Shown in pieces: positions 15,371 to 44,897 of a DNA stretch of 64,000 nt. This stretch comes from Acrocarpospora corrugata (GTDB lineage: Bacteria; Actinomycetota; Actinomycetes; Streptosporangiales; Streptosporangiaceae). Position 1 is the stretch's first letter, and every line of letters begins with the position of its first letter. The notes under the pieces were generated by a model. That model worked only from the letters and a program-made list of their open reading frames with translations. It ran no database searches and was not told the origin of the DNA. The DNA lies in the NCBI RefSeq assembly GCF_009687845.1, contig NZ_BLAD01000035.1, positions 1 through 64,000 on the forward strand. The letters are read 5' to 3'. The translations under genes and the position numbers were made by a program.

Positions 15371-16357
15371 ATGCCGACCACGATCGGCTCGCTGCGCCGG
15401 CTGCTGCTCACCCCGTCGTTACGGGAGGTGAGCTTTTCCGCCCGCGGCTTCCCGGCCGCGCCGCCGGGAACCACCCGGCACCTGGAGGCGATCCCGCAGG
15501 CCGTCATCTGCGGTTTCGAATGGGGCATCGACGCCCGCGACCAGTGGGAGGTGGAACGCCGCCTCGAACTGGTCGAACCCGAACAGCGCGGCTTCGCCTA
15601 CGAGGGCGCCACCATGGCGTTCGCCGTGGTGGACGCGATGGGCGGCGGGCGCGGGCACCGCACCCGCGACCTGCTGCTCGGGCCTGGACATCCGCACATC
15701 TTCCTCACCTACATCGGCGTCGGCTTCGCCATGGCGCGGCTGCCCCGGCCGCTGTGGAAGAAGATCATGCCGGATCTCACCGGCTCGCCGTACTATCCGG
15801 CGATGACCTGGCTGGCCGTCGACGGGTACGGCTTCGACCGGGCCTACTTCGAGACCAGACGCTGGGTGGACGAGCAGCGCATCCCGGCCGCCTATCCGTG
15901 GGAGGGCCGGGCGGACTACTTCCCGCGCGCCGTCGACCAGGGCATCGGCCGGGCGCTCTGGTTCATCCACGGCGGGCAGGTCCCCGGCGTGGTCGGCGCG
16001 GTCCGCAAGTTCGCGGCCGGCCGGCAGGCGGACCTGTGGAGCGGCGTCGGGCTGGCGGCCACCTTCGCGGGCGGCTCCGACCCGGCCGCGCTGGCCGCGC
16101 TGCGCCGCGAGTCGGGGGAGCACTGGGCCCAGCTGGCGCAGGGCGCGGTGTTCGCCGCCAAGGCCAGGCACCACGGCGGGCACGTGCCCGAGCACAGCGC
16201 GGCCGGAGTGTCGATCCTGGCCGACGTGTCGGTCGAGGGGGCGGTCGCGGTGGCCGACGACTCGGCCGTCGACGCCGCCGCGAAGGCCGACGTCCCGGCC
16301 TACGAGTTGTGGCGTAATAACGTCAGAAGCAAGCTTAATTCGCGTGAGCAAGTTTGA
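15371..16357 (+). CDS. DUF1702 enediyne protein, E3/UnbL-like (copy 1)
   Basis: 328 residues, the normal length of this family. It shares blocks with the next gene: RGFAYEGATMAFAVVDA, YIGVGFAMARLPR, WLAVDGYGFDRAYFET, VDQGIGRALWF and GVGLAATFAGG. DUF1702 proteins (UnbL, SgcE3) belong to the conserved enediyne cassette; their biochemical role is not settled but they are thought to help core formation. No catalytic motif or signal peptide is seen. The start has a gaggaggg ribosome-binding site. First gene of the core operon. Confidence 0.9.
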   Translation: MPTTIGSLRRLLLTPSLREVSFSARGFPAAPPGTTRHLEAIPQAVICGFEWGIDARDQWEVERRLELVEPEQRGFAYEGATMAFAVVDAMGGGRGHRTRDLLLGPGHPHIFLTYIGVGFAMARLPRPLWKKIMPDLTGSPYYPAMTWLAVDGYGFDRAYFETRRWVDEQRIPAAYPWEGRADYFPRAVDQGIGRALWFIHGGQVPGVVGAVRKFAAGRQADLWSGVGLAATFAGGSDPAALAALRRESGEHWAQLAQGAVFAAKARHHGGHVPEHSAAGVSILADVSVEGAVAVADDSAVDAAAKADVPAYELWRNNVRSKLNSREQV

Positions 16358-16394
16358 AGTAGACGTGCCTCCACAGTCAATGGATATTTGATAT

Positions 16395-17369
16395 GTGGCT
16401 AATATGGTGCGCGCGCTCAGGCGCAAAATTCTTACCCCGGATATGTCTGCCACCAGGGTCGACGTAAGGGGATTCCACGAAAAGAGCCCGGCCGCCAAAG
16501 AATTGCTCGAAACGGTCGGGCGCTCCTTTCTCACCGGATTCGCCTACGCCGCCGAGGCCCGTACGGCGCCCGACGCGGAAGAATTGCTGGAGAAAATTCC
16601 GGAACGCTTCCGCGGATTCGCCTACGAGGGCGCGGCGATGGCATTCACCATCGTCGACGCGCTGCCATTCGGCGGCCGCGGCAGATTCCCCGCATTCATG
16701 GCGGGCCGCGGCCGGAACCACGTCTACATGGTCTATGTCGGAATCGGCTGGGCCATGGCCCGGCTGCCCCGGCTGGTCTGGTCGCGGGTCCAGGCCCCCG
16801 ACCCGCTGCTCCGCTGGCTCGCCCTCGACGGGTACGGCTTCCACCAGGCCTACTTCCAGACCGCCAAGTACGTGCACGGCCAGTTCCAGGAACCGCGTTT
16901 CCCCTGGCCGCGCGGCGACCACGGCGACTACCCCAACCGCGCCATCGACCAGGGCATCGGCCGGGCCATGTGGTTCGTGGCCGGCACCGACCCGGTCCTG
17001 GTGGCCGACCTGATCGACAAGTTCCCCGAGTCCCGCCGCGCCGACCTGTACGCCGGAACCGGCCTCGCCGCCACCTACGCCGGCGGCGCCACCGAGGCCG
17101 AGCTGCGCACCCTGTGGGACCGGGCCGGAATCTACCGCCCGCAGGTCGCGCAGGGCAGCGCGTTCGGCGCGACCGCCCGGATCGAGGCCGGGCTGCTCGG
17201 CCCGCACACCGAACTGGCCGTCCGCGTGTTCTGCGGGATGACGCCCGAGAAGGCGTCCCTGATCTGCGCGGAAGCCCTGCCCGACGGGCCGCTCGACGGC
17301 GTGCCGCCCGGCTACGAGGTGTGGCGGCAGCGCATCGCCGATGAATTCGTATCTCTTGGGAGGTGTTAG
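16395..17369 (+). CDS. DUF1702 enediyne protein, E3/UnbL-like (copy 2)
   Basis: 324 residues from GTG 16395; an ATG at 16404 is an alternative because neither has a clear ribosome-binding site. The blocks RGFAYEGAAMAFTIVDAL, YVGIGWAMARLPR, WLALDGYGFHQAYFQT, IDQGIGRAMWFV and GTGLAATYAGG match the previous gene, so this is a tandem paralogue. The pair probably arose by duplication before strong divergence. It leads into the E4 gene after three bases and so is likely co-translated with it. Two E3-type genes side by side suggest a heteromeric complex or divided function. Confidence 0.9.
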   Translation: MANMVRALRRKILTPDMSATRVDVRGFHEKSPAAKELLETVGRSFLTGFAYAAEARTAPDAEELLEKIPERFRGFAYEGAAMAFTIVDALPFGGRGRFPAFMAGRGRNHVYMVYVGIGWAMARLPRLVWSRVQAPDPLLRWLALDGYGFHQAYFQTAKYVHGQFQEPRFPWPRGDHGDYPNRAIDQGIGRAMWFVAGTDPVLVADLIDKFPESRRADLYAGTGLAATYAGGATEAELRTLWDRAGIYRPQVAQGSAFGATARIEAGLLGPHTELAVRVFCGMTPEKASLICAEALPDGPLDGVPPGYEVWRQRIADEFVSLGRC

Positions 17370-17372
17370 TCA

Positions 17373-19316
17373 GTGGCACGCACAGCTGGCTGGATCCGCA
17401 GGCAACTGCCGGGAATCGTGGCGTTGGCGCTGCTCGCCGTCGCGTTCGTGATCGTCAAACTACCCTCGGCGTCCCCCGCCGAGCGGCAGGAGATGGCGAG
17501 CACGTACGGCTTCAAGCCGATGAACATCGCGCTGCCGGGCGGCTTCAAGAACCAGACGATCCGCCGGGTCAACCAGGACTACACGCACATCGACGCGTGG
17601 ATCTCCTCGGTCGGCGCCGGCATCTCCATGAACGACCTGGACGGTGACGGCCTGTCCAACGACCTGTGCGTCACCGACCCGCGCATCGACCAGGTCGTGG
17701 TCACCCCGACGCCGGGCCTCAAGGCCGACAGGTACGCGCCGTTCGCGCTGGTCCCCTCGGGGCTGCCGATGAACGACGTGATGGCCCCGATGGGCTGCGT
17801 CCCCGCCGACCTGAACGAGGACGGCCGGATGGACCTGCTGGTCTACCTGTGGGGGCGGACCCCGATCATCTACCTGGCCAAGGCGGACGCGGACGGGCTG
17901 AGCGCCGCGGCGTACCAGGCGATCGAGGCGGTGCCGCCGCGGAGCAGCACGCCGGGGTACACCGGGCCGCAGTGGAACACCAACGCCGTGGTCGTCGACG
18001 ACTTCGACGGCGACGGCCACGACGACGTCTACGTGGGCAACTACTTCCCGCACGGGCCTGTGCTCGACGACAAGCTGAGCGGCGGGGTGGCCATGAACCA
18101 CTCGATGTCGCACGGCATCAACGGCGGCGAGGACTACTTCCTCCGCTGGACGGCGTCGGGACCGGCCTCGGTGAGCTTCCAGGAGATCGGCGACGCGCTG
18201 CCGCTGAACGTCTCCAAGGGCTGGGTGCTGGCCGCCGCGGCGACCGACGTGGACGGCGACATGCTGCCCGAGATGTACCTCGGCCACGACTTCGGCCCCG
18301 ACCGGATGCTGCGCAACTCCTCCAGCCCGGGCCAGATCAGGTTCACCGTGGTGGAGGGCACCAGGACGCCGCTGGTCCCCAAGTCCAAGGTGGTCGGCCT
18401 GGACTCCTTCAAGGGCATGGGCGTCGACTTCGGCGACCTCAACGGCGACGGCCTCTACGACATGTTCGTCAGCAACATCACCACCACCTTCGGCATCCAG
18501 GAGAGCAACTTCGCCTTCATGAGCGACGCGAAGGACAAGAGCCAGGTGCGCGCCGACCTGTCCCAGGGGCACGCGCCCTGGAAGGACCTGAGCGCCCCGC
18601 TCGGCCTGGCCTGGTCCGGCTGGGGCTGGGACCTGAAGATCGCCGACTTCAACAACAGCGGCCAGCCGGCCATCGCGCAGTCCACCGGCTTCGTGAAGGG
18701 CGAGGTCAACCGCTGGCCGCTGCTCCAGGAGCTGGCCACCGCCAACGATCAGGTGCTCCAGCACCCGGTGTGGTGGCCGAACGTGCGGGCCGGCGACGAC
18801 GTCGGCGGCAGCCAGACCTTCATGTTCTACGTCAAGGGCGCCGACGGCTACTGGAGCAACGTGGCCGGCGAACTGGGGATGTCCATCCCGGTGCCCACCC
18901 GCGGCGTCGCCACCGGTGACGCGGACGGCGACGGCCGCCTCGACATGGCGGTCGCCCGGCAGTGGGACGAGCCGGTCTTCTACCAGAACACCAGCACCAG
19001 CGAGGGCGGCTTCCTGGGCCTGCGGCTCACCCACGAGCGGGCCGACGCGAGCCTGTCCGGGTCGCCGGTGGTCGGCGCGCAGGTGACGCTGACCATGCCG
19101 GACGGCCGCAAGCAGATCAGCCGGGTGGACGGCGGCAGCGGCCACTCCGGCAAGCGCAGCAGCGAGGTGCACTTCGGCCTCGGCGAGAACGTGACCGGCC
19201 CGGTCCAGGTGAACCTCTGCTGGCGGGACCGTAGCGGCGAAATCCACGAACAGAACCTTCAGCTGAGTCCGGGCTGGCACGACATCCAGCTGGGCGCTCA
19301 GGCGACGGAGAGGTGA
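17373..19316 (+). CDS. ASPIC/UnbV FG-GAP enediyne protein, E4-like
   Basis: 647 residues from GTG 17373, with gggaggtg just upstream. An N-terminal membrane anchor or signal (about 13-30, GIVALALLAVAFVIV) is followed by an FG-GAP beta-propeller with repeated calcium-type loops: NDLDGDGLSND, ADLNEDGRMD, DDFDGDGHDD, TDVDGDMLPE, GDLNGDGLYD and GDADGDGRLD. The C-terminal 80 residues form the ASPIC/UnbV domain (VVGAQVTLTMPDGRKQISRV, SSEVHFGLGE). This is the UnbV/SgcE4 member of the enediyne cassette, probably facing outwards. It lies between the DUF1702 pair and the E5 membrane protein. Confidence 0.92.
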   Translation: MARTAGWIRRQLPGIVALALLAVAFVIVKLPSASPAERQEMASTYGFKPMNIALPGGFKNQTIRRVNQDYTHIDAWISSVGAGISMNDLDGDGLSNDLCVTDPRIDQVVVTPTPGLKADRYAPFALVPSGLPMNDVMAPMGCVPADLNEDGRMDLLVYLWGRTPIIYLAKADADGLSAAAYQAIEAVPPRSSTPGYTGPQWNTNAVVVDDFDGDGHDDVYVGNYFPHGPVLDDKLSGGVAMNHSMSHGINGGEDYFLRWTASGPASVSFQEIGDALPLNVSKGWVLAAAATDVDGDMLPEMYLGHDFGPDRMLRNSSSPGQIRFTVVEGTRTPLVPKSKVVGLDSFKGMGVDFGDLNGDGLYDMFVSNITTTFGIQESNFAFMSDAKDKSQVRADLSQGHAPWKDLSAPLGLAWSGWGWDLKIADFNNSGQPAIAQSTGFVKGEVNRWPLLQELATANDQVLQHPVWWPNVRAGDDVGGSQTFMFYVKGADGYWSNVAGELGMSIPVPTRGVATGDADGDGRLDMAVARQWDEPVFYQNTSTSEGGFLGLRLTHERADASLSGSPVVGAQVTLTMPDGRKQISRVDGGSGHSGKRSSEVHFGLGENVTGPVQVNLCWRDRSGEIHEQNLQLSPGWHDIQLGAQATER

Positions 19317-19324
19317 CAGCTCCC

Positions 19325-20323
19325 ATGTCAGCACAGAACGGTTCCACAGCGAATGGTGCTCGTCCGGTGGCCGAGCCGCCGCGGCACGACAAAAAGGTGA
19401 TCACCGCGCTGCGCCGGTTCGCCATGTCCATCACCGTCTTCAACATCCTCGGCTACACCTGGCTCGGCTTCGAGCAGCCCTACCTCTGGCCGTTCATCGC
19501 GCTGGCCACCGGCTACACGGTGGAGATCGTGCTGGAGATGATCGGCGCGCGGGTGGAACACCGGGCGCCGCGCTTCCGGGGCGGCGGGGCGAAGGGGCTG
19601 ATGGAGTTCCTGCTGCCGGCCCACATCACCAGCCTCGCGATGAACATGCTGATCTACGTCAACGACCGCCTGCTCGTGATGATCTTCGGTGTCATGGTCG
19701 CGGTCGGCGCCAAGTGGATCCTGCGGGCGCCGGTGCGCGGGCGGCTGCGGCACTTCATGAACCCCTCCAACTTCGGCATCACGGTCATCCTGCTGCTGTT
19801 CCCGTGGGCCAGCATCGCGCCGCCGTACCACTTCACCGAGCACATCGACGGGCCGCTGGACTGGCTGATCCCGCTCGGCATCGTGATGGCCGGGACGATG
19901 ATCAACGCCAAGCTGACCGGGCGGATGTACCTGATCATGGCCTGGGTCGGCGGGTTCGCGCTCCAGGCCGTGGTGCGCGGGGTGCTGCTGGACGTCAACA
20001 TCCTGGGCGGTCTGGCGACCATGACCGGGGTGGCGTTCGTGCTGTTCACCAACTACATGATCACTGACCCGGGCACCAGCCCGTCCAAGCCGGGGGCGCA
20101 GATCGCCTTCGGCGGCGGCGTCGCGCTCACCTACGGGGTGCTGACCGGCATGAGCATCCCCTACGGGATCTTCTTCGCCACCGCGATCGTCTGCCTGGTC
20201 CGCGGCGGCTTCCTGTGGTCGCTGCACTTCTCCGAGCAGTCCAGGGCCAAGCAGGAGGCCGCGACGCTGGCCGAGGCCCAGGCCGCGGTGGCCCAGCCCG
20301 GCAGGGAGGTCGCACCCGTATGA
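19325..20323 (+). CDS. RnfD-like membrane protein UnbU, E5-like
   Basis: 332 residues from the ATG at 19325, placed nine bases after the AGGTG of the previous gene's end; a GTG at 19313 overlapping the E4 stop is the alternative. About eight to nine hydrophobic segments lie between residues 35 and 300. The segment NYMITDPGTSPSKPGAQIAFGG (about 242-263) is the flavin-attachment-type loop of RnfD/NqrB proteins. UnbU/SgcE5 is a fixed part of the enediyne cassette with an unknown role; relation to RnfD suggests membrane redox. Its stop overlaps the PKS start (ATGA). Confidence 0.9.
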   Translation: MSAQNGSTANGARPVAEPPRHDKKVITALRRFAMSITVFNILGYTWLGFEQPYLWPFIALATGYTVEIVLEMIGARVEHRAPRFRGGGAKGLMEFLLPAHITSLAMNMLIYVNDRLLVMIFGVMVAVGAKWILRAPVRGRLRHFMNPSNFGITVILLLFPWASIAPPYHFTEHIDGPLDWLIPLGIVMAGTMINAKLTGRMYLIMAWVGGFALQAVVRGVLLDVNILGGLATMTGVAFVLFTNYMITDPGTSPSKPGAQIAFGGGVALTYGVLTGMSIPYGIFFATAIVCLVRGGFLWSLHFSEQSRAKQEAATLAEAQAAVAQPGREVAPV

Positions 20324-23300
20324 CCAGGATCGCCATCGTCGGGATGGCCTGCCGATACCCGGACGCGTCCTCCCCGCGCGAGCTGTGGGAGAACGTCCTC
20401 GCCGGGCGCAGGGCCTTCCGGCGGCTGCCCGACCAGCGGATGCGGCAGGCCGACTACTGGGACGCCGACCCGGCCGCCCCGGACCGGTTCTACGCCCGCA
20501 ACGCCGCGGTCATCGAGGGGTACGAGTTCGACCGGGTGGCGTACAAGATCGCGGGAAGCACCTACCGCTCCACCGACCTCACCCACTGGCTGGCCCTCGA
20601 CACCGCCGCCAAGGCCCTCGCCGACGCCGGGTTCCCCGGCGCCGAGGGCCTGCCGAAGGAGCGCACCGGCGTGATCGTCGGCAACACGCTGACCGGGGAG
20701 TTCTCCCGGGCCAACGTGATGCGGCTGCGCTGGCCGTACGTGCGCAGGACCGCCGCGGCCACGCTCAAGGAGCACGGCTGGGAGGACGAGAAGGTGGCCG
20801 CGTTCCTGCGCGACTACGAGACCGTCTACAAGGCGCCGTTCCCCGGCATCGACGAGGACAGCCTGGCCGGCGGCCTGGCCAACACCATCGCCGGCCGGAT
20901 CTGCAACCACTTCGACCTGAAGGGCGGCGGCTACACCGTCGACGGCGCCTGCTCCTCGTCCCTGCTCTCGGTCGCGACGGCCTGCCGGTCGCTGGTCGAC
21001 CAGGACGTCGACGTGGCCATCGCGGGCGGCGTGGACCTGTCCATCGACCCGTTCGAGGTGATCGGCTTCGCCAAGACCGGCGCGCTGGCCAGGGGCGAGA
21101 TGCGCCTGTACGACAAGGGCTCCAACGGGTTCTGGCCCGGCGAGGGCTGCGGGATCATCGTGCTGATGCGGGCCGAGGACGCCGAGCGGGCCGGCCGCCG
21201 GATCTACGCGACGATCGCCGGCTGGGGGATCTCCTCCGACGGCAAGGGCGGGATCACCCGGCCCGAGGTGGCCGGATACCAGCTGGCGCTGCGGCGGGCC
21301 TACGAGCGGGCCGGTTTCGGGATCGAGACCGTGCCCATGTTCGAGGGGCACGGCACCGGCACCCAGGTGGGCGACAAGACCGAGCTCACCGCGCTGTCGC
21401 TGGCCCGCAGGTCGGCCGACCCGGACGCCGCGCCCGCGGCGATCAGCTCGATCAAGGGCATGATCGGGCACACCAAGGGCGCGGCCGGGGTGGCCGGCCT
21501 GATCAAGGCGGCGATGGCGGTGCACCAGCAGGTGCTGCCGCCGACCGTCGGCTGCGTGGACCCGCATCCGGTGCTGACCGAGGAGCCGGTCGCGCTGCGG
21601 GTGCTGCGCAAGGCCGAGGCCTGGCCCAGCGGCGAACCGGTCAGGGCCGGGGTGACCGCGATGGGGTTCGGCGGCATCAACACCCATCTGGTGCTGGAAC
21701 GGTCGGGGGCGCGCAAGCGGCTCCCGTTCGATCCGCGCACCCGGGCGCTCGCGGCCTCGGCGCAGGACGCCGAGCTGCTGCTGATGGACGCCGGTTCCCC
21801 GGCCGAACTGCGGGAACGGGTGGCCGAACTGGCCGCCTTCGTGCCCGTGCTGTCGTACGCGCAGCTGGGCGACCTGGCCGCGACGCTGCAGCGGGACCTG
21901 CGCGACCTGCCGTACCGGGCGGCCGTCATCGTGACCTCGCCCGAGGACGCGGAGGCGCGGCTGCGCCGCGTCCTGGACGCGCTGGACGCGGGCGAGAGCA
22001 GCCTGTTCGACGGTAAGGGCTTCCTCGGCCACGTGACCGGGGTGGGCCGGGTCGGCTACCTGTTCCCCGGCCAGGGTTCCGGGCGCGGCGTCAGCGGCGG
22101 CGCGCTGCGCCGCCGCTTCGCCGAGGTGGACCAGGTGTACGCCAAGGCGGCGCTGCCCGCAGGGGCGGACGTGGTCGCCACCGCGGTGGCCCAGCCCAGG
22201 ATCGTCACCGGCTCGATGGCGGGGCTGCGCGCCCTGGCCACGCTCGGCATGGAGGCGGCCGTCGCCGTCGGGCACAGCCTCGGCGAGATCTCCGCCCTGC
22301 ACTGGGCGGGGGCGATGGACGAGGAGACGCTGCTGGAGGTGGCCGCCCTGCGGGGCAGGACGATGACCGAGCACAGCTCCTCCGGCACCATGGCCGGGCT
22401 CGCCACCACCGCCGACGCCGCCCTCGACCTGATCGGGGCGGACCCGGTGGTCATCGCCGGCTACAACGGGCCCGAGCAGACGGTGATCGCCGGAACCGCC
22501 GAAGCGGTCGAGGCGGTCGGCCGCAAGGCCGCCGCGGCGGGCGTCCAGTTCACCCCGCTGCGGGTCTCGCACGCCTTCCACTCACCCCTGGTCGCGCCCG
22601 CCGCGGCCGAATTCGCGGGCCGGCTCGACCGGGGCGCGTTCGGCCAGATCGGCGCGCGGATCGTGTCTACGGTGACCGGCGACGCGCTGGCCGCCGACAC
22701 CGACATCCCCGCCCTGCTGCGGCTGCAGATCACCGAACCCGTGCAGTTCGCGCAGGCCGTGGAGCTGGCCGCCAAGGACATCGACCTGTTCGTGGAGGTC
22801 GGTCCCGGGCGGGTGCTCAGCGGGCTGGCCACCGGCGTCACCGGCGTCGCGGCCGTCTCGATGGACACCGACGACGAGTCGCTGACCGGGCTGCTGCGGG
22901 TGGTCGCGGCGGCCTACGTGACCGGGGTCCCGATCACCACCGAGGCGCTGTTCCACGGCCGGCTGGTCCGGCCGCTGGAGGTCGGGCAGGAGTTCTCGTT
23001 CTTCGCCAGCCCGTGCGAGTCGGTCCCGGACGTGGACATCGCGGCCGCCCCCGTGCTGGCCGTCGAAACCGCCGCGGTCTCCGCCGAAGCCGGCGAATCC
23101 ATCGTGGACCTGCTCCGGCGGCTCGCCGCCGAACGGGCCGAACTGCCCATGGAGATGGTCGCCCCAGGCAGCCACCTCCTGGACGACCTGCACCTCAGCT
23201 CGATCACCGTCGGGCAGATCGTCAACCAGGCCGCGCAGGCGCTCGGGGTCCCCCCGGCCGCCGCGCCGATGAACTTCGCCACCTCGACCGTGAGCGAACT

Positions 23301-26026: not shown

Positions 26027-26464
26027 GTGGGCAACTACTTCGAATACCTGCACACGGTCGGCTTCGAGGAGACCAACATCGTCGGCAACGTCTACTACGT
26101 CAACTACCTGCGCTGGCAGGGGCGTTGCCGGGAGATGTTCCTCAAGACCAACGCGCCGGACGTGCTCGCCGAACTGCAGGACGACCTCAAGCTGTTCACG
26201 CTCAAGGTCGACTGCGAGTTCTACGCCGAGATCACCGCCTTCGACGAGCTGTCCATCCGGATGCACCTCGTCGACCTGGCCCAGACCCAGCTCGAATTCA
26301 GCTTCGACTACGTCAAGCTCGACGCCCGCGACCTGGGCGTCGGCGAGGCGCTGATCGCCCGCGGCCGTCAGCGGGTGGCGTGCATGCGGGGACCCAACAC
26401 CCGCACCGTGCCCGCCCGCGTGCCCGACTCGCTGGTTCGAGCACTCCAACCCTACGTGCCGTAG
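26027..26464 (+). CDS. Enediyne hot-dog thioesterase, E10-like
   Basis: 145 residues starting at GTG 26027, one base after the PKS stop. The sequence FEETNIVGNVYYVNYLRWQG (about 13-32) is the acyl-CoA thioesterase signature of SgcE10/DynE7-type enzymes, which release the polyene from the PKS. These enzymes use Arg and a backbone network instead of the Asp found in 4-hydroxybenzoyl-CoA thioesterase, and Asn-Val here fits that. The chain RARQRVACMRG... ending in LVRALQPY is also typical. Part of the core cassette, translated with the PKS. Confidence 0.95.
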   Translation: MGNYFEYLHTVGFEETNIVGNVYYVNYLRWQGRCREMFLKTNAPDVLAELQDDLKLFTLKVDCEFYAEITAFDELSIRMHLVDLAQTQLEFSFDYVKLDARDLGVGEALIARGRQRVACMRGPNTRTVPARVPDSLVRALQPYVP

Positions 26465-26481
26465 CCCTCGGGGGAATCCAC

Positions 26482-33120: not shown

Positions 33121-33513
33121 ATGACTACTGCCCCATCCCGCGGTGCGGAACAGGCCCCCGGCCGGATCGTCGCCGCGTGGGCGAAGAACGACGGCGACGC
33201 CTTCGCCGCGGCCTGCACCGAGGACGCGTCGCTGATCCTGCCGGGCGTCTACCTGAAGAGCCGGGCCGAGATCCGCGACTTCATGACCGCCGCGTACGCC
33301 GGCCCGTTCAAGGGGACCCGGGTGCACGGCGACCCGCTCAGCATGCGCTACCTCAGCGACGACGTCGCCGTCATCGTCACCCAGGGCGGCGTGCTGCACC
33401 CCGGCGACGAGAAGGTCACCCCCGAGCGGGAGATCCGGGCGACCTGGGTGCTGACCAGGAAAGACGACGGCTGGCTGATCGCCGCCTACCAGAACACCCC
33501 CACCGCGGCCTGA
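33121..33513 (+). CDS. SgcJ/EcaC-family SnoaL-fold protein
   Basis: 130 residues of the NTF2-like SnoaL fold: RIVAAWAKNDGDAFAAACTEDASLILPGVYLKSRAEIRDFMTAAY... and a closing WVLTRKDDGWLIAAYQNTP. The family is named after SgcJ of the C-1027 cluster, where it is proposed to help cyclise the polyene to the enediyne core. The fold forms a cone-shaped pocket. It lies between the GMC gene and a P450 in the operon that starts at 30772, which supports a core-forming role. Confidence 0.85.
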   Translation: MTTAPSRGAEQAPGRIVAAWAKNDGDAFAAACTEDASLILPGVYLKSRAEIRDFMTAAYAGPFKGTRVHGDPLSMRYLSDDVAVIVTQGGVLHPGDEKVTPEREIRATWVLTRKDDGWLIAAYQNTPTAA

Positions 33514-36058: not shown

Positions 36059-37843
36059 TCAGCTGTAGGCCCGCGCTTGCAGGGCGAACAGCTCGGAGTA
36101 GAGGCCGCCGGCGGCGGCCAGGTCGGCGTGCGCGCCGGTCTCGACGATCCGGCCGTCCTGGACCACGATGATCAGGTCGGCCATCCGGACGGTGGAGAAG
36201 CGATGCGAGACGAACAGGGTGATCGCGCCGGTGGCGGCGCTGACCCGGCCGGCCTGCTCGGCGTACTGCTCGAACAGGGCGTGCTCGGCCTGCGGGTCGA
36301 GCGCGGAGGTGGGTTCGTCGAGCACCAGCAGCAGTGGCGCGGAGCGCATCAGCGCCCGGCCGAGCGCCAGTTTCTGCCACTGGCCGCCGGACAGTTCGGC
36401 GCCGTCGGCGTAGGTCTTGCCGAGCTGGGTGTCCAGGCCGTGCTCCAGCTGGCCGAGCACGTCGCCGGCCTGGGCGCGGGCCAGCGCGGCCCGGATCCCG
36501 TCCTGGTCGGCCAGCCGGGGCAGGTCGCCGACGCCGACGGTCTCGCCGGCCGGGAACTCGTACCGGATGAAGTCCTGGAAACCGGCGGCGATCCGCTCGC
36601 GCCAGTCGTCGATCGCGATCCGGCTCAGGTCGACGCCGTCGATGAGGACCTGGCCGCGGGTCGGGCGGTAGAACCCGCACAGCAGTTTGACCAGGGTGGT
36701 CTTGCCGGCGCCGTTCTCGCCGACGATGGCGACCGTGCCGCCGGCGGGCAGCCGGAGATTCACCTCACCCAGCACCGCGGTCGCGGTGCCGGGGTAGGTG
36801 AACGACACGTCCCGCAGAGTGATCCCGTCGCGCAGCCGGTCGGGCGGCGACTGGTCGGGCGAACCTGGGCCCGTCGTGGTGACGACCCTGGCCAGGTCGG
36901 CCAGCCTGCGGTACGCGGCGGCCATGCGCTGCAGGTCCTGCAGTAGTGTGACGGCGGTGGTGACCTGCTGGTTCACCTGTGCCGCGAGCGCGATGACGAG
37001 GACCACGTCGCTCACGCCCCGCCGCCCGGTGATCGCGTCGCGGACCACCAGGAGGACCGCGCCGACATACGCCAGCGCGAAGATTATCTGACCCGCCGCG
37101 CGCACCCAGGTCGCGGCCAGGTGCGCGCGGACCAGGCCGCGCGTCGCGGCCGCCCAGATCGAGCGGTGCCGCCCGCGCAGCTCGTCGGCCAGCCGGAACA
37201 CCCGCAGCTCGCCCGCCAGCCTGGCCGAGGTGGTCAGGTGGAACAGGTTGAGCGCGACCCGGGTGGGCTCGGCGGTGGCGGTCCTGGCCCGGTCGCTGAT
37301 CCGCTCGGCGATCCGGCCGGTCAGCAGCGGCGGCAGCGCCGCCAGCGGGAGCAGCAGCAGCCACGGGTTGACCCGGGCCAGCAGCACGGCGGTCAGCGCG
37401 ACGGCCAGCGCCAGGCCGATGCTGTTGAGCAGGGCCTCCAGGCCGACCCGGAACTGGCGGGCCTCCTGCTGGAGCACGGTGAGGGAGTCGGCGTGCTCGG
37501 GCCGCTCGTGGTGCTCGATCCCGGCCGAGCCGTTGGACAGGGTGATGAGCCGCTCGGCGAAGTCGAGTTCGGCCAGCTCGGAGAGTTCGAAGTAGGCCAG
37601 GTGGGCGAAGTGCCCGAAGGTCAGGACGGCCACGGCGAGCGCCGCCACGACCACCCCGGCCACGGCCGCGCCGCCGGTGTCGCCCGCCACCACCGCGCCG
37701 GTCATCCAGGCCAGGGCGGCGGCCAGGGCGGGCGCGGCCACCGCGCCGGACACCATCAGCACCACCGAGACGATCGTCTTGCGGCGGTCCATCCGCCAGG
37801 CGGTCGAGATCATCTGGACCGCGCCGGAGAGCAGGTCCCTCAT
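36059..37843 (-). CDS. ABC exporter half-transporter, subunit 2 (second copy)
   Basis: 594 residues from ATG 37843, coupled by ATGA to the upstream gene. A membrane domain is followed by an ATPase with Walker A GENGAGKTT, signature LSGGQWQKLALGRAL, Walker B LLVLDEPTSALD and switch SHRFS. It is very like the 8988-10766 protein throughout, including the loops HLAYFELSELAELDF and GSAGIEHHERPEHADSLTVLQQE, so the pair was duplicated. Reads against the enediyne oxidation operon. Probably one half of a second drug exporter. Confidence 0.9.
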   Translation of the reverse strand: MRDLLSGAVQMISTAWRMDRRKTIVSVVLMVSGAVAAPALAAALAWMTGAVVAGDTGGAAVAGVVVAALAVAVLTFGHFAHLAYFELSELAELDFAERLITLSNGSAGIEHHERPEHADSLTVLQQEARQFRVGLEALLNSIGLALAVALTAVLLARVNPWLLLLPLAALPPLLTGRIAERISDRARTATAEPTRVALNLFHLTTSARLAGELRVFRLADELRGRHRSIWAAATRGLVRAHLAATWVRAAGQIIFALAYVGAVLLVVRDAITGRRGVSDVVLVIALAAQVNQQVTTAVTLLQDLQRMAAAYRRLADLARVVTTTGPGSPDQSPPDRLRDGITLRDVSFTYPGTATAVLGEVNLRLPAGGTVAIVGENGAGKTTLVKLLCGFYRPTRGQVLIDGVDLSRIAIDDWRERIAAGFQDFIRYEFPAGETVGVGDLPRLADQDGIRAALARAQAGDVLGQLEHGLDTQLGKTYADGAELSGGQWQKLALGRALMRSAPLLLVLDEPTSALDPQAEHALFEQYAEQAGRVSAATGAITLFVSHRFSTVRMADLIIVVQDGRIVETGAHADLAAAGGLYSELFALQARAYS

Positions 37844-39702
37844 GCCGGGACCTCGCTGGTGAACCGGTCGGCCTGGAGCCGGAACAGGGTGGCGTAGCGG
37901 CCCTCCAGGGCCAGCAGATGCTCGTGGGCGCCCTGTTCGATGATCCGGCCGTGTTCCAGGACGACGATCAGCTCGGCCTGGCGGACGGTGGAGAAGCGGT
38001 GCGAGATCAGCAAGGTGGTGGCGCCCTGGGTGAGGGCGGCGAAGGTCTCGAAGAACTGGGCCTCGGCGCGGACGTCGAGGCTGGCGGTGGGTTCGTCCAG
38101 GACCACGATGGGGGAGCCGTGGCGGAGCGCGAACAGCGCCCGGGCCAGCGCGACCCGCTGCCACTGGCCGCCGGAGAGTTCGGCGCCGCCGGTCAGGTGC
38201 CGCGCCAGCGGGGTGTCCAGGCCGAGGGGGAGCGCGTCCAGGGTCTCGGTGAGGCCGACCGCGTCGGCGGCGGCCCGGATGCCGGCCCGGTCGTCCATGG
38301 CGGCGACCGCGCCGAAGGCGATGTTGTCGGCGGCCGGGGCCTCGTACTTCGCGAACTCCTGGAAGATCACGCCCAGCTTGGCGCGCCAGACCTCGATCGG
38401 GTAGCTGGCGATGTCCACACCGTCGGCGCGGATGGCGCCCGAGGTCGGCTCGTACAGGCGGGCCAGGAGTTTGACCAGGGTCGTCTTGCCCGCGCCGTTG
38501 AGGCCGACGATCGCGGTGCAGCGGCCGATCGGGAAGGTCAGGTTGAGGTTCTCGAAGATCGGGCGGCTCTGGCCCGGGTAGGCGAAGGTGACGTCGTCGA
38601 ACTGGATCGTCCAGACCGGGTCGGGGATGCGGGACGGGAGCCAGGGCCTGATCGCCCCGCCCGGCGACGGCGCCGACGGCGTCTCGACGTGGCGGGCGAA
38701 GCGCAGCACCCGGTCGTAGGCCTCCATGCCGACGGCCGTCTGCAGGTCGGCCTCCGGGTAGTACTCCGACAGGCGGAGCGCGCCCAGGCAGGCCTGCATC
38801 ACCAGGACGAACTGGGTGAGGGTGAGGGTTCCGGCCGCGCCGGCCGCGCCGAAGACGGCGGCCATCACCGCCAGCGTCCAGAGCGCGAACCCGACGAACG
38901 GCCACAGGTAGACGCGGCGGCGTTCCGCCCACATCGGCTTCAGCCAGGTCAGGTAGGAGTCCCGCAGCCGGTCCCGCAGATGGCCGGTCAGGCCGAAGAC
39001 GCGGATCTCCTTGCCGGCGGCGGGCTGGGTGGCCAGGTCGCGGAAGTAGTCGCCCTTGCGTTCGGCCGGGCCGAGGGCGAACCGGACCTTGACGTACTTG
39101 CGCAGGCCGCCGCGCTGGCCGTACCGGAAGAGCAGCACCGCGACGGTGAGGCCGGCGGCGGCGAGCCAGGAGAACATCAGGCCCACCACGACCGCGTAGC
39201 CGGTCAGCTGGGTGTAGCGGGCCAGCAGCGCGAGCAGCCCCGCGCACGCCTGGCCGGGGCTCTGCACGCCGAACTCCAGCTCCCGGGCGGCCGTGCGGAG
39301 CGCGTCCACCGCCTCCTGGTCCTCCAGCGGCGCGATGCCCTGGCTGCGCAGCGCGGCGCCCATCAGCTCGTCGTAGACCTGGCCGTCGATCCGCCGGGCC
39401 AGCAGCTCGCCCAGCGTCGACTGGAGCGGCGCGAAGATCTGCTGCCCCACGAACGCCGCCGCGGCCACCACGAAGACTGCCACGAGCGAGTCCCAGGCGG
39501 CCGAGTCCAGCCCGTCCCGTACGGCCGAGGGCACCCGCCCCAGCACCACGCTGGTGGCCGCCACGAAGACCACGGGCAGCACGCCCAGCACCAGATTGAC
39601 CAGCACCAGCAGGAGCACCAGCCCGCGTCCGCCACGGGGCGCCTGCCGGGCGATCAGCCACCGGGCGGCCACCAGTTCGCGCGGCTTGGACAGGGCTCGC
39701 AT
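37840..39702 (-). CDS. ABC exporter half-transporter, subunit 1 (second copy)
   Basis: 620 residues from ATG 39702 (aggaggtgg upstream). About six membrane spans, then Walker A GLNGAGKTT, signature LSGGQWQRVALARAL, Walker B IVVLDEPTAS and LISHRFS. Long identical blocks are shared with the 7114 protein, for example ARELEFGVQSPGQACAG, LLFRYGQRGGLRKY and MWAERRRVYLWPFV. It forms a heterodimer with the next gene. The promoter faces that of the sigma factor gene at 39860 in a 157-base gap, so the two may share control. Confidence 0.9.
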   Translation of the reverse strand: MRALSKPRELVAARWLIARQAPRGGRGLVLLLVLVNLVLGVLPVVFVAATSVVLGRVPSAVRDGLDSAAWDSLVAVFVVAAAAFVGQQIFAPLQSTLGELLARRIDGQVYDELMGAALRSQGIAPLEDQEAVDALRTAARELEFGVQSPGQACAGLLALLARYTQLTGYAVVVGLMFSWLAAAGLTVAVLLFRYGQRGGLRKYVKVRFALGPAERKGDYFRDLATQPAAGKEIRVFGLTGHLRDRLRDSYLTWLKPMWAERRRVYLWPFVGFALWTLAVMAAVFGAAGAAGTLTLTQFVLVMQACLGALRLSEYYPEADLQTAVGMEAYDRVLRFARHVETPSAPSPGGAIRPWLPSRIPDPVWTIQFDDVTFAYPGQSRPIFENLNLTFPIGRCTAIVGLNGAGKTTLVKLLARLYEPTSGAIRADGVDIASYPIEVWRAKLGVIFQEFAKYEAPAADNIAFGAVAAMDDRAGIRAAADAVGLTETLDALPLGLDTPLARHLTGGAELSGGQWQRVALARALFALRHGSPIVVLDEPTASLDVRAEAQFFETFAALTQGATTLLISHRFSTVRQAELIVVLEHGRIIEQGAHEHLLALEGRYATLFRLQADRFTSEVPA

Positions 39703-39859
39703 GCCACCTCCTGGGACTGCTGCAACGGACTTCACAAGTACAGACCAGACGTGCGTCCAAAACTCATCGGCTCCGCGCAAAGATCAGGTAGGGACAAGCA
39801 CGGGCCGGATGATTACGGTGGGATCTGACAGTCTTGGCGGCCGGAGCAGGGAGTGTCGG

Positions 39860-40834
39860 ATGGCAGATCGCGAGGGTGACTTCACCCGCCTGGCCGATCC
39901 GTTCCGGCGCGAGCTGCTGGCGCACTGTTACGGCATCCTCGGCTCGGTGGACGAGGCGGAGGACCTGGTCCAGGAGACCTACCTGCGGGCGTGGCGGTCC
40001 TACGAGCAGTTCGAGGGGCGCTCGTCGATCCGTACCTGGCTGTACCGGATCGCCACCAACGCCTGCCTGACCGCGGTCGAGCAGCGGAACCGGCGGCCGA
40101 TGCCCACCGGGCTCGGCGGCCCCTGCGAGGACCCGGAGCGGCTGCCCCCGGCGCAGCCGGAGATCCCCTGGCTGCAACCGCTGCCGGACGCGCTGCTGCG
40201 GCCCGAGTACGTGGACCCCGCCGCGATCGTCCACTCCCGCCAGACGGTACGGCTGGCCATGGCCGCCGCGCTCCAGCACCTGCCGCCCCGGCAGCGGGCG
40301 GTGCTGCTGCTGCGCGACGTCTTCGAGTGGCGGGCCAACGAGGTGGCCGAGCTGCTGAACACCACCACGGCCGCGGTCAATAGCATGCTGCAGCGGGCCA
40401 GGGCCCAGCTGGGCGAGGTCTCGGCCGACGACGACTACACCGAGCCGGCCCGGCGGGACCAGCGCGAGCTGCTGGACCGGTGGGCGGCCGCGATGGAGAC
40501 GGCCGACGTGGCCGCGCTGATGCGGCTGCTGGAGGAGGACGCGGTCTGGGAGATGCCGCCGTTCGCGGCCTGGTTCAGCGGGCGCGCGGCGATCGGGCGG
40601 CTGATCGCCTCCCAGTGCCCGGCCGGGCCGGGTGACACCCTGATGGTCCCGACCCGGGCCAACGGGCAGCCCGCCTTCGCCTTCTACCTGCGTCAGGACG
40701 CGCGGGTGCACCGCGCCTACTCGATGCACGTGCTGAGCCTGAAGGGCGGCTACGTGCACCGGGTCTCGGTGTTCTTCTCGCCGGAGCTGTTCGGCTCGTT
40801 CGGCCTGCCCATGGAGTACGCCGCCGCCGGATAG
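39860..40834 (+). CDS. ECF sigma factor with SnoaL-like C-terminal domain
   Basis: 324 residues. Region 2 (about 8-75: LLAHCYGILGSVDEAEDLVQETYLRAWRSYEQFEGRSSIRTWLYRIATNACL) and region 4 (about 130-185: LPPRQRAVLLLRDVFEWRANEVAELLNTT) are clear. The C-terminal 130 residues form a SnoaL-like domain, as in SigG-type (TIGR02960) ECF factors, which lack a classical anti-sigma factor and use this domain for control. Start chosen at the ATG after agcagggag. Its place among cluster genes makes it a candidate regulator of the cluster; its promoters are unknown. Confidence 0.88.
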   Translation: MADREGDFTRLADPFRRELLAHCYGILGSVDEAEDLVQETYLRAWRSYEQFEGRSSIRTWLYRIATNACLTAVEQRNRRPMPTGLGGPCEDPERLPPAQPEIPWLQPLPDALLRPEYVDPAAIVHSRQTVRLAMAAALQHLPPRQRAVLLLRDVFEWRANEVAELLNTTTAAVNSMLQRARAQLGEVSADDDYTEPARRDQRELLDRWAAAMETADVAALMRLLEEDAVWEMPPFAAWFSGRAAIGRLIASQCPAGPGDTLMVPTRANGQPAFAFYLRQDARVHRAYSMHVLSLKGGYVHRVSVFFSPELFGSFGLPMEYAAAG

Positions 40835-41066: not shown

Positions 41067-42230
41067 ATGCGTCCATTTCGCATTGAAATTCCGCAGGCCG
41101 ACCTGGACGACCTGCACGACCGGCTGGCCAGGACCCGGTGGCCGGAAGAGCCGCCAGGAACCGGCTGGAGCCGCGGCGTCCCCCTCGACTATCTGAAGGA
41201 ACTGGCCGAGTACTGGCGGACCGGCTTCGACTGGCGCGCCGCCGAGGCCCGGCTCAACGAGCACCCCCAGTTCGTCACCGAGATCGACGGCGCCAACGTG
41301 CACTTCGTGCACGTGCGCTCGCCGGAACCCGACGCCACCCCGCTGATCATCACGCACGGCTGGCCCGGCTCGATGGCCGAGTTCCTGGACGTGATCGGCC
41401 CGCTCACCGACCCCCGCGCCCACGGCGGCGACCCGTCCCAGGCGTTCCACGTGGTCATCCCGTCGCTGCCCGGCTTCACCCTGTCGGGCCCGGTGGCCGA
41501 GACCGGCTGGGACTCCTGGCGGGTGGCCCGCGCCTGGGCCGAGCTGATGCGCCGCCTGGGCTACCAGCGGTACATCGCCCAGGGCTCCGACTGGGGGATG
41601 ATGATCTCCTTCCAGCTGGCCCAGGTGGACCCGGAGAACGTGCTCGGCGTGCACGTGAACATGCTGGTCACCTTCCCGTCCGGCGACCCGGCCGAGATGG
41701 CCGCGCTCACCCCGGACGAGATGGCCGGCCTCGGCAAACTCCTCCACTTCGACCAGGAGCTGTCGGCCTACTTCAAGCTCATGGCCACCCGCCCGCACAC
41801 GATCGGCTACGGCCTGACCGACTCGCCGGTCGGCCAGCTGGCCTGGATCGTCGAGCGATTCATGGACTGGACCGACGCGGAGAAGGCCCCCGAGGACGCC
41901 GTGGACCGGGACCAGATGCTCACCAACGTCTCCCTCTACTGGCTGACCCGCACGGCCCTCTCGTCCGGCTCGCTCTACTACGAGAACACCGACCGGACCG
42001 TCTCCAACGTGGCCGCCAAGTTCGGCGGCCCCTGGCCGGTCACCCAGCCGGTCGGCGTGGCCGTCTTCGCCGGCGACGCGACCGCGCCGATCAGGTCCTG
42101 GGCCGAGCGGCTGGTCCCCACCATCACCCACTGGAGCGAGCTGCCGCGCGGCGGCCACTTCGGCGCGATGGAGGAGCCCGACCTGTACGTCGCCGACGTA
42201 CGCGCCTTTCAGCGATCGCTGCGCGGATGA
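41067..42230 (+). CDS. EHN-type epoxide hydrolase, SgcF-like
   Basis: 387 residues. The N-terminal EHN domain ([24 protein letters not shown]) precedes an alpha/beta-hydrolase: oxyanion motif [10 protein letters not shown], nucleophile elbow [10 protein letters not shown] with Asp, and His in [13 protein letters not shown]. Such enzymes (SgcF, NcsF2, KedF) open the epoxide of nine-membered enediyne cores to a vicinal diol. Its presence is one of the better signs that the core is nine-membered. First gene of an operon that runs to the MFS exporter. No signal peptide, unlike the 12089 hydrolase. Confidence 0.92.
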
Positions 42231-42387: not shown

Positions 42388-43563
42388 GTGAAACACGCTC
42401 AGGCGCCAGCCCAGGAAGAGCTCGTCCGGCGCGCGTCGGAACTGGTTCCGCTGCTCCAGGCGAACGCGCTCAGCACCGAGGACGGCAGGCAGCTGACCCC
42501 CGACTCGCTGGACGCGCTCCGCGACGCCGGCATCTACCGGATGCGCGTCCCGGCCCGGTACGGCGGCTACGAGAGCGACGCCCGCACCATGGTCAGGGTC
42601 GCCTCGGAACTCGGCCGCGGCGACGGCTCCACCTCGTGGACCGCGTCCGTCTGGTGGATCACGTCGTGGATGGCGGCGATGTTCCCCGACGACGTCCAGG
42701 ACGAGGTGTTCGACTCGCCCGACACCCGCCTGTGCGGCACGCTCAGCCCGACCGGCATGGCCGTACGGCAGCCGGGCGGGGCCGTGCTGAACGGCAAGTG
42801 GGGCTTCATCAGCGGCGCCAGGCACAGCACGTGGCAGGTGATCGTCGCGGTCAGCCCCACCCCGGAGGGCGGCCACGAGCCGATCATGGCCCTGGTCCCG
42901 CTGGCCGACCTGCAGATCGTGGACGACTGGTTCACCTCGGGCCTGCGCGGCACCGGCAGCATCACCACGATCGCCCAGAACGTGTTCATCCCCGAGGAGC
43001 GCATCCTCTCGATGGGCGCGATCCTGCACGAGCAGTACGGCTCCAAGCGCAACGCCGAGAGCGCGATCTACCGCAACCCGCTGCTCCCGGTCGCCTCGGC
43101 CTCCTCGGTCGGCACCGTGCTCGGCATGGCCAAGGGCGCCTGGGACGCCTTCCTCGGCCGGCTGCCCGACCGGCACATCACCTACACGGCGTACACCAGC
43201 CAGCGGGAGGCCCCGCTCACCCACTTCCAGGTGGCCGAGGCGCGGCTGCTGATCGACGAGGCCGAGTTCCACGCCCTCCGGCTGGCCGGCCAGGTGGACG
43301 AGAAGTCCGGCGCGGAGTGGACCGCGGAGGAGCGGGCCCGCGCCCGCGCCGACATGGGCGCGGTCTGCGACCTGGCCAAGCAGGCGGTGGATCTGCTGAC
43401 CACCGCGAGCGGCGGCTCGTCCATCTACAGCGACGTGCCGATGCAGCGGATCCAGCGCGACATGCAGGCCGTCAACCTGCACGCGCTGATGCATCCGGAC
43501 ACCAACCGTGAACTCTACGGCCGCATCCTGTGCGGGATGCCGCCCAATACCTTCTACCTGTAG
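42388..43563 (+). CDS. Class D (acyl-CoA-dehydrogenase-fold) flavin monooxygenase, copy 2
   Basis: 391 residues from GTG 42388. It aligns along its whole length with the 34786 protein: LRDAGIYRMRVPARYGGYES, ASVWWITSWMAAMFPDDVQDEV, LCGTLSPTGMAV, NGKWGFISGARHSTW, TASGGSSIYSDVPMQRIQRDM and a shared ending LYGRILCGMPPNTFYL. The family (HpaB/HsaA/ActVA-ORF5) hydroxylates phenols with reduced flavin from a partner reductase. Two divergent copies suggest two separate hydroxylation steps. Followed after 11 bases by an FAD oxidoreductase. Confidence 0.85.
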   Translation: MKHAQAPAQEELVRRASELVPLLQANALSTEDGRQLTPDSLDALRDAGIYRMRVPARYGGYESDARTMVRVASELGRGDGSTSWTASVWWITSWMAAMFPDDVQDEVFDSPDTRLCGTLSPTGMAVRQPGGAVLNGKWGFISGARHSTWQVIVAVSPTPEGGHEPIMALVPLADLQIVDDWFTSGLRGTGSITTIAQNVFIPEERILSMGAILHEQYGSKRNAESAIYRNPLLPVASASSVGTVLGMAKGAWDAFLGRLPDRHITYTAYTSQREAPLTHFQVAEARLLIDEAEFHALRLAGQVDEKSGAEWTAEERARARADMGAVCDLAKQAVDLLTTASGGSSIYSDVPMQRIQRDMQAVNLHALMHPDTNRELYGRILCGMPPNTFYL

Positions 43564-43574
43564 AGGAGCAGAAG

Positions 43575-44897
43575 ATGCGGAACCGCGCGGTGGTGCTGGG
43601 CGGCGGGATGGCCGGCCTGGTGGCCGCCAAGGTGCTGTCGGAGCAATTCGAGGAAGTCCTGCTGGTGGACCGGGACCAGCTGGCCGGGGTGGCCGACCCA
43701 CGCCGCGGCGTTCCGCAGGGGGCGCACGCGCACGGCCTGCTGGCCAAGGGCCAGGAAGTGCTGGAGGGCATGTTCCCCGGCCTCACCAGGGAACTGGCCG
43801 ACGCCGGGATCCCCACCGGCGACATGGGCGTCAACCTGCGCTGGTACTTCAACGGCCATCGGCTCCAGCCGAAGGCGACCGGCCTGAAGGTGATCTCGGC
43901 CACCCGGCCGGAGCTGGAGGGCGCGGTGCGCGCCCGGGTGCAGGCCCTGCCCAACGTCAGGTTCCTGGAGAACCACGTCATCCTCTCGCTCACGGTCACC
44001 CAGGACCGGAGCCGGATCACCGGGGTCAAGGTCGCGCCCGAGGGTGAGGGCGCGGAGGTCGAGCTCACCGCCGACCTGGTGGTGGACGCCACCGGGCGCG
44101 GCTCGCGCACCCCCGCCTGGCTGGCCGAGCTCGGCTACCCGCGCCCCGAGGAGGACCGCGTCAAGATCGGCCTCTCCTACACCACCTGCCACTACCGGCT
44201 GCGCGAGAACGTGCTCGGCGAGGACATGGCGATCCTCTGCGTGGCCACCCCCGACCACCCGCGCGGCGCGTTCTTCTCCCGGCTGAACGACCGCTACCTG
44301 CTCTCGCTCACCGGCATGCTGGGCGACCAGGCCCCGACCGACCCCGAGGGCCACCTGGCCTTCGTCAAGTCGCTGCCGGTGCCGGACATCCACGAGGCCG
44401 TGCACGACGCTGAGGTGCTGGACGAGCGGGTGGCGTTCCGCTACCCGGCCAGCGTCTGGAAGCACTTCGAGCGGCTCACCCGCTTCCCGCTGGGGCTGCT
44501 GGTGGTCGGCGACGGCGTGTGCAGCTTCAATCCGGTGTACGGCCAGGGCATGACGGTGGCCGCGCTGGAGGGCCTCACCCTGCGCGAGCACCTGAAGGGC
44601 GGCGGCCTGCCCGACGCCAAGGCGTTCTTCACCGACGTGGCCAAGGTGATCGAGGCGCCGTGGGGCGTCGCGGCCGGCGGCGACCTCAGCTTCCCCGGCG
44701 TGGAGGGGGAGCGGAGCGAGGAGGTGCTGATGGGCAACGCGTACATGGACCGGCTGCGGGCGGCGGCCGAGCACGACGGGATCGTCACCGCCGCGTTCAT
44801 GCGGGTGGCCGGGCTCATCGATCCGGTGGAGTCGCTGATGCGGCCGGCGATGGCGCTGCGGGTCTCCCGGCACCAGCCCGAGACCCAGAACGCCTAG
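43575..44897 (+). CDS. FAD-dependent oxidoreductase (monooxygenase/reductase type)
   Basis: 440 residues. N-terminal dinucleotide fold VVLGGGMAGLVAAKVL (about 6-21), then GVPQGAHAHGLLAKGQEVLEG, a DLVVDATGRGSRTP motif (about 170-183) and GLLVVGDGVCSFNPVYGQGMTVAALEG (about 308-334), the FAD-ribityl and pyrophosphate region. This style is shared by aromatic hydroxylases, squalene-epoxidase-like and geranylgeranyl-reductase-like enzymes found in polyketide clusters. No halogenase WxWxIP motif was seen. A Baeyer-Villiger, epoxidation or hydroxylation role is possible; the substrate cannot be told. Confidence 0.8.
   Translation: MRNRAVVLGGGMAGLVAAKVLSEQFEEVLLVDRDQLAGVADPRRGVPQGAHAHGLLAKGQEVLEGMFPGLTRELADAGIPTGDMGVNLRWYFNGHRLQPKATGLKVISATRPELEGAVRARVQALPNVRFLENHVILSLTVTQDRSRITGVKVAPEGEGAEVELTADLVVDATGRGSRTPAWLAELGYPRPEEDRVKIGLSYTTCHYRLRENVLGEDMAILCVATPDHPRGAFFSRLNDRYLLSLTGMLGDQAPTDPEGHLAFVKSLPVPDIHEAVHDAEVLDERVAFRYPASVWKHFERLTRFPLGLLVVGDGVCSFNPVYGQGMTVAALEGLTLREHLKGGGLPDAKAFFTDVAKVIEAPWGVAAGGDLSFPGVEGERSEEVLMGNAYMDRLRAAAEHDGIVTAAFMRVAGLIDPVESLMRPAMALRVSRHQPETQNA

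Follow-up and report, generated by a model that had tools for sequence, protein, structure and literature searches.

The window analyzed here is the whole 64,000-nt stretch at positions 1 to 64,000 of contig NZ_BLAD01000035.1 of Acrocarpospora corrugata (Streptosporangiaceae; source genome 9.27 Mb; G000:C35:1-64000 in our indexing), and its central part carries a biosynthetic gene set of the enediyne kind. The host is a soil bacterium, and nine-membered enediynes are rare DNA-cutting natural products. On the plus strand, the core opens with two DUF1702 genes, one of E2 type (15371..16357; PF08012, 5.7e-140) and one of E3 type (16395..17369; PF08012, 7.4e-135), followed by an E5/UnbV-type protein (17373..19316; PF07593, ASPIC/UnbV, and PF13517, FG-GAP), an E4/UnbU-type membrane protein (19313..20323), the enediyne polyketide synthase (PKSE; 20320..26025), an E10 thioesterase (26027..26464), an E6 flavin reductase (26476..26979; PF01613; PDB 4hx6/4r82) and an E7 cytochrome P450 (26976..28355; PF00067). 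Further along the same strand lie a DUF5987 protein (30766..31338; PF19449), a GMC oxidoreductase (31335..33017; PF00732, PF05199), an SgcJ-type protein (33112..33513; PDB 4ovm, 3.3e-37, and 4i4k) and an SgcF-type epoxide hydrolase, F (41067..42230; PF06441), which matches PDB 5f4z (3.5e-166) and 4i19 (1.8e-151), both of which we take to be enediyne epoxide hydrolases. The E10 protein scores 235 bits against PDB 4i4j, presumably SgcE10, 208 against CALE7 and 120 against DYNE7.

The PKSE has the order KS-AT-ACP-KR-DH with a C-terminal PPTase-like part. The KS, AT, KR and DH domains score above their Pfam cut-offs and the ACP slightly below (20.5 versus 20.8 bits), and the motifs DGACSSS (KS), GHSLGE (AT), LSSI (ACP) and DHLL (DH) are kept. 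The PPTase part, which has no Pfam match, is assigned from a C-terminal stretch conserved in a 15-row alignment. The E4/UnbU-type protein, which has neither a Pfam nor an NCBIfam match, is likewise assigned by conservation, with a homologue in 14 of the 15 fuller enediyne loci against which the genes of the window were compared. The GMC oxidoreductase is 74-84% identical to its homologues in 14 of the same 15 loci. An earlier note, made from the letters of this DNA, had named this PKS architecture together with E10, DUF1702, UnbV and UnbU; all were located, the PPTase and UnbU by conservation and without a family match. The SgcF-type, SgcJ, E6/E7 and AraC proteins that it also named are confirmed by Pfam or PDB matches, and its StrR call finds support in homologues from nine-membered loci (49% identity in C-1027).

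Enediyne biosynthetic clusters are defined, in the excerpted text of PMC5181780, by a PKS cassette E3/E4/E5/E/E10, and the same excerpts give E2 as exclusive to nine-membered clusters and R3 as exclusive to ten-membered ones. The cassette is complete in the window, and the E2-type gene, the published nine-membered marker, is present. Reference loci were anchored with thioesterases from the PDB: Streptomyces globisporus JCM 4378 for C-1027 (100% to 4i4j), genome G147 for calicheamicin (CAL; 98% to CALE7) and genome G144 for dynemicin (DYN; 100% to DYNE7). Streptomyces sp. CB02366, listed in those excerpts as a confirmed C-1027 producer (PMC5181780), carries a protein 99% identical to 4i4j. The C-1027 locus has one E2-type and one E3-type DUF1702 gene, to which the copies in the window are 61% and 54% identical, respectively; the CAL and DYN stretches, 20 kb each, have one copy apiece, nearer the E3 type and matched best by the E3-type protein of the window, and no E2-type copy.

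The window PKSE is 64% identical to that of C-1027, 58.5% to that of CAL and 43% to that of DYN. In a 57-row PKSE tree built by a quick method it falls in a 35-row clade with C-1027 (SH-aLRT 100), with CAL and DYN outside, and a 23-row KS-AT tree under a mixture model agrees (13-row clade, 100/98); C-1027 is the only characterized nine-membered reference in these trees. The Phytohabitans flavus PKSE (L117), placed with nine-membered PKSEs in the excerpts of PMC7692728, has a position here that agrees with that report. By a scripted count, 32 of the 35 clade rows and 3 of the 22 rows outside have an E2-type copy close to the PKSE; the three clade rows missed are the window itself, which lies outside that database and has E2, L117, where E2 is further out, and L248, of which 20 kb was read. 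The E2-type DUF1702 gene and a PKSE that falls into the C-1027 clade and away from the CAL and DYN groups thus argue for the nine-membered type that the earlier note had proposed. The PKS phylogeny that it had put forward as its own check did not place the PKSE with ten-membered PKSEs, and the proposal survived.

The extent of the cluster is set by synteny. We searched the window proteins against 60 kb stretches of three congeners (G001 to G003) and a 43.7 kb contig of a fourth (G004), and considered in addition a Streptosporangiaceae genome of another genus (G054). The genes at 15.4-44.9 kb are syntenic in all four congeners at 80-98% protein identity, so that the cluster is found in 5/5 Acrocarpospora genomes examined, and a rearranged form occurs in G054; family E-values and the synteny in four congeners together rule out chance. 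The shared block ends on the right with an MDMPI gene at 52375-53229 in G001 to G003 (the G004 contig stops earlier). On the left, a block of two family-2 glycosyltransferases (GT2a and GT2b), an ABC pair and a hydrolase, in the order GT2a-ABC-ABC-GT2b-hydrolase, is directly linked to the core in G002 and G003. In G001 and G004 this block sits at one contig end and the E2 gene at the end of another contig, and the order there is therefore compatible with linkage, though not proven. We count the block in the cluster mainly because GT2a-ABC-ABC-GT2b lies inside the G054 enediyne cluster. Between the block and the core, a STAND/NACHT-type putative regulator (13067..15277, plus; PF05729) has a congener match in G003 only, which makes its membership doubtful. 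Synteny thus places the bounds at about 6.2-53.2 kb, and the range 15371..44897 given previously was too narrow.

We conclude, with a probability of roughly 0.88 judged from sequence, that the window encodes an orphan gene cluster for a nine-membered enediyne, about 47 kb long and genus-wide in Acrocarpospora. Its gene set for a nine-membered enediyne is apparently intact. The cluster is a new member of an already known kind, and most of its genes are standard for the type. Relatives of the enediyne PKS number at least 547 in the genome collection, with 49 plasmid records, and 81 of 200 family genomes have DUF1702, which makes the cluster one orphan among many. A separate DUF1702 arrangement, four tandem genes in L076 (G012:C13:109499-113343), adjoins a PKS just 28% identical to the PKSE and has no E10 match, and is possibly a different kind of system.

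The remaining genes of the cluster are for the most part tailoring, transport and regulatory genes, on the plus strand except where noted. Oxidation is represented by a second cytochrome P450 (33525..34775; PF00067), 66-77% identical to proteins of Streptosporangium carneum, Salinispora mooreana, M. chaiyaphumensis, Haloechinothrix and G054; by two HsaA-like class D monooxygenases, FMO1 (34786..35970; PF08028) and FMO2 (42388..43563), which are 56% identical; and by a FAD-dependent oxidoreductase (43575..44897; PF01494/PF12831). The earlier note was right that two class D monooxygenases are present and that a second copy is unusual, but one of them, FMO2, is a standard orthologue with homologues in 29 of 30 enediyne-bearing genomes, and FMO1 is an extra paralogue in a clade of its own with five Acrocarpospora and G054. 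Two such enzymes as a unique trait had to be rejected: 5 of 30 named genomes, among them two Acrocarpospora, have at least two class D copies of 50% identity or more (on different contigs in one of the five), and Actinomadura xylanilytica has three tandem copies.

The left block comprises GT2a (6197..7114; PF00535; 69% match inside the G054 enediyne cluster), ABC exporter pair a (7120..10766, as 7120-8991 and 8991-10766; PF00005), GT2b (10787..12013; PF00535; 51% in G054) and an alpha/beta hydrolase (12089..13036; PF00561) that is kept in the congeners and 54% identical in G054. ABC exporter pair b (36062..39711, minus, as 36062-37837 and 37840-39711; PF00005) is paralogous to pair a, at 76% and 80% identity. 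The two GT2 enzymes and two ABC pairs noted before therefore exist, but the GT2s and one ABC pair lie at 6.2-12.0 kb, outside the range then given. Regulators include an AraC-family protein (28415..29188, minus; PF12833), a StrR/ParB-like protein (29564..30517, minus) with a weak HTH match in Pfam, an ECF sigma factor with a SnoaL domain (39857..40834; PF04542, PF08281, PF12680) and a TetR protein (50793..51446, minus; PF00440, PF13305). Toward the right end are a CMD/AhpD-like protein (44902..45828; PF02627; homologue in 14/15 loci), an MFS exporter (45594..47042; PF07690 from residue 90, the true start probably being near 45830), an HpnA-like short-chain dehydrogenase/reductase (SDR; 48097..49098; PF01370; TIGR03466 below cut-off), an acyl-CoA carboxyltransferase (48897..50792; PF01039, the domain beginning at residue 145), a partial carotenoid-oxygenase-like protein (51494..52348; PF03055, positions 150-263 of 469) and the MDMPI/DinB-type protein (52375..53229; PF11716; homologue in 14/15 loci). 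Mycothiol-type enzymes like the last could bear on self-protection or thiol chemistry; the CAL and DYN stretches, of 20 kb each, gave no homologue of it. On the minus strand at 47385-48030, part of a membrane-protein-like frame with no Pfam match is kept in the congeners and partly in several enediyne loci.

Two neighborhoods flank the cluster. A free-standing condensation-domain protein (53222-55033, minus) adjoins it on the right; present in G001 and G003 and absent from the stretches read in G002, G004 and G054, it was set aside as a cluster member. On the left, the segment 449-5175 encodes, besides NrtR, a protein resembling adenylosuccinate synthetase and an amidohydrolase next to an FGE-type domain; it also occurs in A. 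phusangensis, and NrtR recurs at 85% identity in G054, near the enediyne cluster of that genome.

The roles of individual genes in the nine-membered core pathway follow from general knowledge of their families, and we infer every catalytic step in this way, on a gene content, clade placement and conservation that are observed. The iterative PKSE would make a polyene that E10 would release, and E2-E5, the E7 P450, the GMC/DUF5987 pair and other conserved genes would convert it to the nine-membered core. E6 would provide reduced flavin for the class D monooxygenases, F would hydrolyze an epoxide, and the second P450, the monooxygenases and the FAD oxidoreductase would tailor the core, with GT2a and GT2b as its putative glycosyltransferases. 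The ABC and MFS pumps would export the product under the presumed control of the AraC, StrR, ECF and TetR proteins, and such export is the likely means of self-protection.

An apoprotein gene (PF00960) was not found in any of the six genomes G000 to G004 and G054, none of which therefore classes as chromoprotein-enediyne by that gene; a control search found the family in 4 of 8 other enediyne genomes, including both C-1027 producers. The predicted product would be glycosylated, with neither apoprotein nor beta-amino acid nor aromatic acid. The absence of a sugar pathway, as stated earlier, holds insofar as the window has no classical deoxysugar set, but it overlooks the GT2s conserved in the cluster and a second locus elsewhere in the genome.

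What is new here is this unlinked locus (L261:8024-11969; G000:C75, ~44.0-48.0 kb), in which a third class D monooxygenase stands with two GT2a-like GT2s and an epimerase-like SDR (PF01370), and which occurs in the same six genomes as the GT2-bearing cluster. Its gene order is FMO-GT2-SDR-GT2 in 5/5 Acrocarpospora and GT2-FMO-GT2-SDR in G054, and its distance from the cluster is at least ~236 kb in G002 and at least ~121 kb in G054. A search with GT2a matched 8 of 200 family genomes (the five Acrocarpospora, G054, G031 and G308) and, in a class-level sample, 3 of 394, own genome included; by this search the unlinked locus is in no other of the 200 family genomes. The class D monooxygenase family is present in 13 of 100 relatives, which are exactly those with E2- and E3-type DUF1702 (two matches above 430 bits), and in none of the other 87, eight with other DUF1702 patterns included. 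In a tree of these monooxygenases, which includes one spurious long row (L063_G037_15130) and an outgroup that is not a single clean branch, FMO1 (100/100), FMO2 (99/96) and the third monooxygenase (100/99) each define a separate group made up of five Acrocarpospora and G054, and the third group lies among enediyne-cluster monooxygenases with moderate support (81/86). Where the enediyne cluster has GT2s, two GT2s and a sugar-type SDR are thus accompanied by a monooxygenase of enediyne type. The GT2s and the matching unlinked genes suggest an uncharacterized sugar-bearing product, and the unlinked locus may be a trans-acting sugar module.

Relatives of these GT2s recur in other settings. L262:9145-15926 and L270 hold a GT2a relative beside a C-A-PCP nonribosomal peptide synthetase (NRPS) module and condensation-type proteins, at 87-92% between G000 and A. 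macrocephala; a cluster conserved in three genomes (L263, L264, L333) combines GT2s with radical SAM/SPASM, flavin monooxygenase, MFS, PIG-L deacetylase and GH3 genes, and its product looks aminosugar-bearing. An extra GT2b-GT2a pair without ABC genes, 90-92% identical to that of the window, lies at L267:10268-12639 (G004:C13), and G004 also has the full GT2-ABC block on another contig.

Several observations weigh against the conclusion that this is a nine-membered cluster with GT2 tailoring. The ring size is assigned from sequence features; the CAL and DYN stretches compared are 20 kb each; and since three rows outside the C-1027 clade also carry an E2-type copy, E2 is not a marker of that single clade. 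A ten-membered product would fit the E10 protein, which matches CALE7 nearly as well as 4i4j, and the 58.5% identity to the CAL-anchored PKSE. However, the E2-type gene and both PKSE trees speak against it, and on these grounds we rejected it as very unlikely; in addition, the 20 kb read of CAL and of DYN showed no homologues of E6, E7, GMC, DUF5987, MDMPI, CMD and F. It is also improbable, if slightly less so, that the cluster is decayed or silent and yields polyene shunt products only: no metabolite is reported from the genus in the literature searched, but the reading frames are open, the catalytic motifs are kept, and the gene set persists in five species at the identities given above.

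The place of the GT2-ABC block in this nine-membered cluster is less certain, as the view that the GT2s act on the enediyne is drawn from gene neighborhood. The block and the unlinked locus might serve another glycoconjugate pathway and merely adjoin the enediyne cluster in Acrocarpospora, a prospect to which we would give a little less than even odds. It accords with the GT2a relatives beside NRPS and radical-SAM/PIG-L/GH3 genes, with best NCBIfam matches to polysaccharide GT2s (all below cut-off) and with a C-1027 locus that has no GT2 or ABC homologues; it fits less well with the GT2a-ABC-ABC-GT2b order retained within the rearranged G054 enediyne cluster and with the monooxygenase of the unlinked locus, whose family is otherwise confined, in 100 relatives, to enediyne genomes. 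More tentatively still, we propose a split pathway, in which the unlinked locus, whose SDR resembles NDP-sugar epimerases, would make and attach sugars that GT2a and GT2b extend, giving a nine-membered enediyne that carries sugars and belongs to none of the known structural families, by way of GT2-fold rather than the usual natural-product glycosyltransferases. Against this proposal, the six genomes represent at most two lineages, and only the GT2 search speaks to the absence of the locus from the other 194 family genomes. In G308, which has a DUF1702 pair of E2/E3 type, the single GT2a relative belongs to a radical-SAM/PIG-L/GH3 cluster without such a monooxygenase, and GT2a relatives adjoin NRPS in Acrocarpospora itself. 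Finally, the GT2a of the G054 cluster groups with an unlinked GT2 of G054 (98/98) and not with Acrocarpospora GT2a, which indicates a history less simple than joint inheritance of all the GT2s.

Should the unlinked locus act together with the cluster, genome mining confined to cluster bounds would overlook some genes of an enediyne pathway, and class D monooxygenases of this family could be used to flag nine-membered enediyne genomes (13/13 versus 0/87 relatives). Few nine-membered enediynes are chemically known: before the jejucarbosides there were five intact and four cycloaromatized families, according to the excerpts of PMC10381858. A compact cluster with no apoprotein gene, shared by five species of a genus that has received little study, is a tractable discovery target. 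No identical characterized cluster, which the earlier note had named as a refutation, was found among the named loci compared, and no Acrocarpospora enediyne cluster appeared in the literature searched, a weak negative given its limited coverage of enediyne biosynthesis.

Comparison with known systems separates the standard from the unusual. The C-1027 locus (L189-L193) has homologues of 18 window genes: E2, E3, E5, E4, PKSE, E10, E6, E7, AraC, StrR, SgcJ and F, and also DUF5987, GMC, one class D monooxygenase (62% to FMO2), the FAD oxidoreductase (62%), CMD and MDMPI. For GT2a and GT2b, the two ABC pairs, the hydrolase, ECF-SnoaL, the carboxyltransferase and TetR it has no homologues, and C-1027 has an apoprotein gene, of which none was found in the window genome. 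The annotated window genes include nothing equivalent to what we take to be the C-1027 genes for benzoxazolinate, beta-amino acid and sugar. By gene set, then, the window cluster is not of C-1027 type. The calicheamicin and dynemicin loci (L229, L235) share the cassette E3, E4, E5, E and E10 but differ in their single E3-type DUF1702 gene in 20 kb and in PKSEs on separate branches. The uncharacterized locus of Streptosporangium carneum (L194-L197) has the nearest PKSE outside the genus (73-74%) and resembles the window in its core, SDR, carboxyltransferase (80%), TetR (78%) and second P450 (73%), but it has one class D monooxygenase, and no GT2, ABC or ECF homologue was found there. Very similar in gene content is the cluster of G054 (contig 47, ~6.9-43.8 kb), with the core, both class D monooxygenases, GT2a-ABC-ABC-GT2b, the carboxyltransferase and the same unlinked locus (second P450 77%, F 72%, FAD oxidoreductase 70%, ECF 63%), although it has a single ABC pair, an altered gene order and a PKSE just 67% identical. 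The earlier view of the gene set as unusual is therefore upheld in part, and largely on other grounds than those it gave: the GT2s, the duplicated ABC pair, ECF-SnoaL and the second class D monooxygenase, together with the hydrolase, are what is truly unusual in the Acrocarpospora cluster, whereas one class D monooxygenase, the FAD oxidoreductase, GMC, DUF5987, CMD and MDMPI are common to C-1027.

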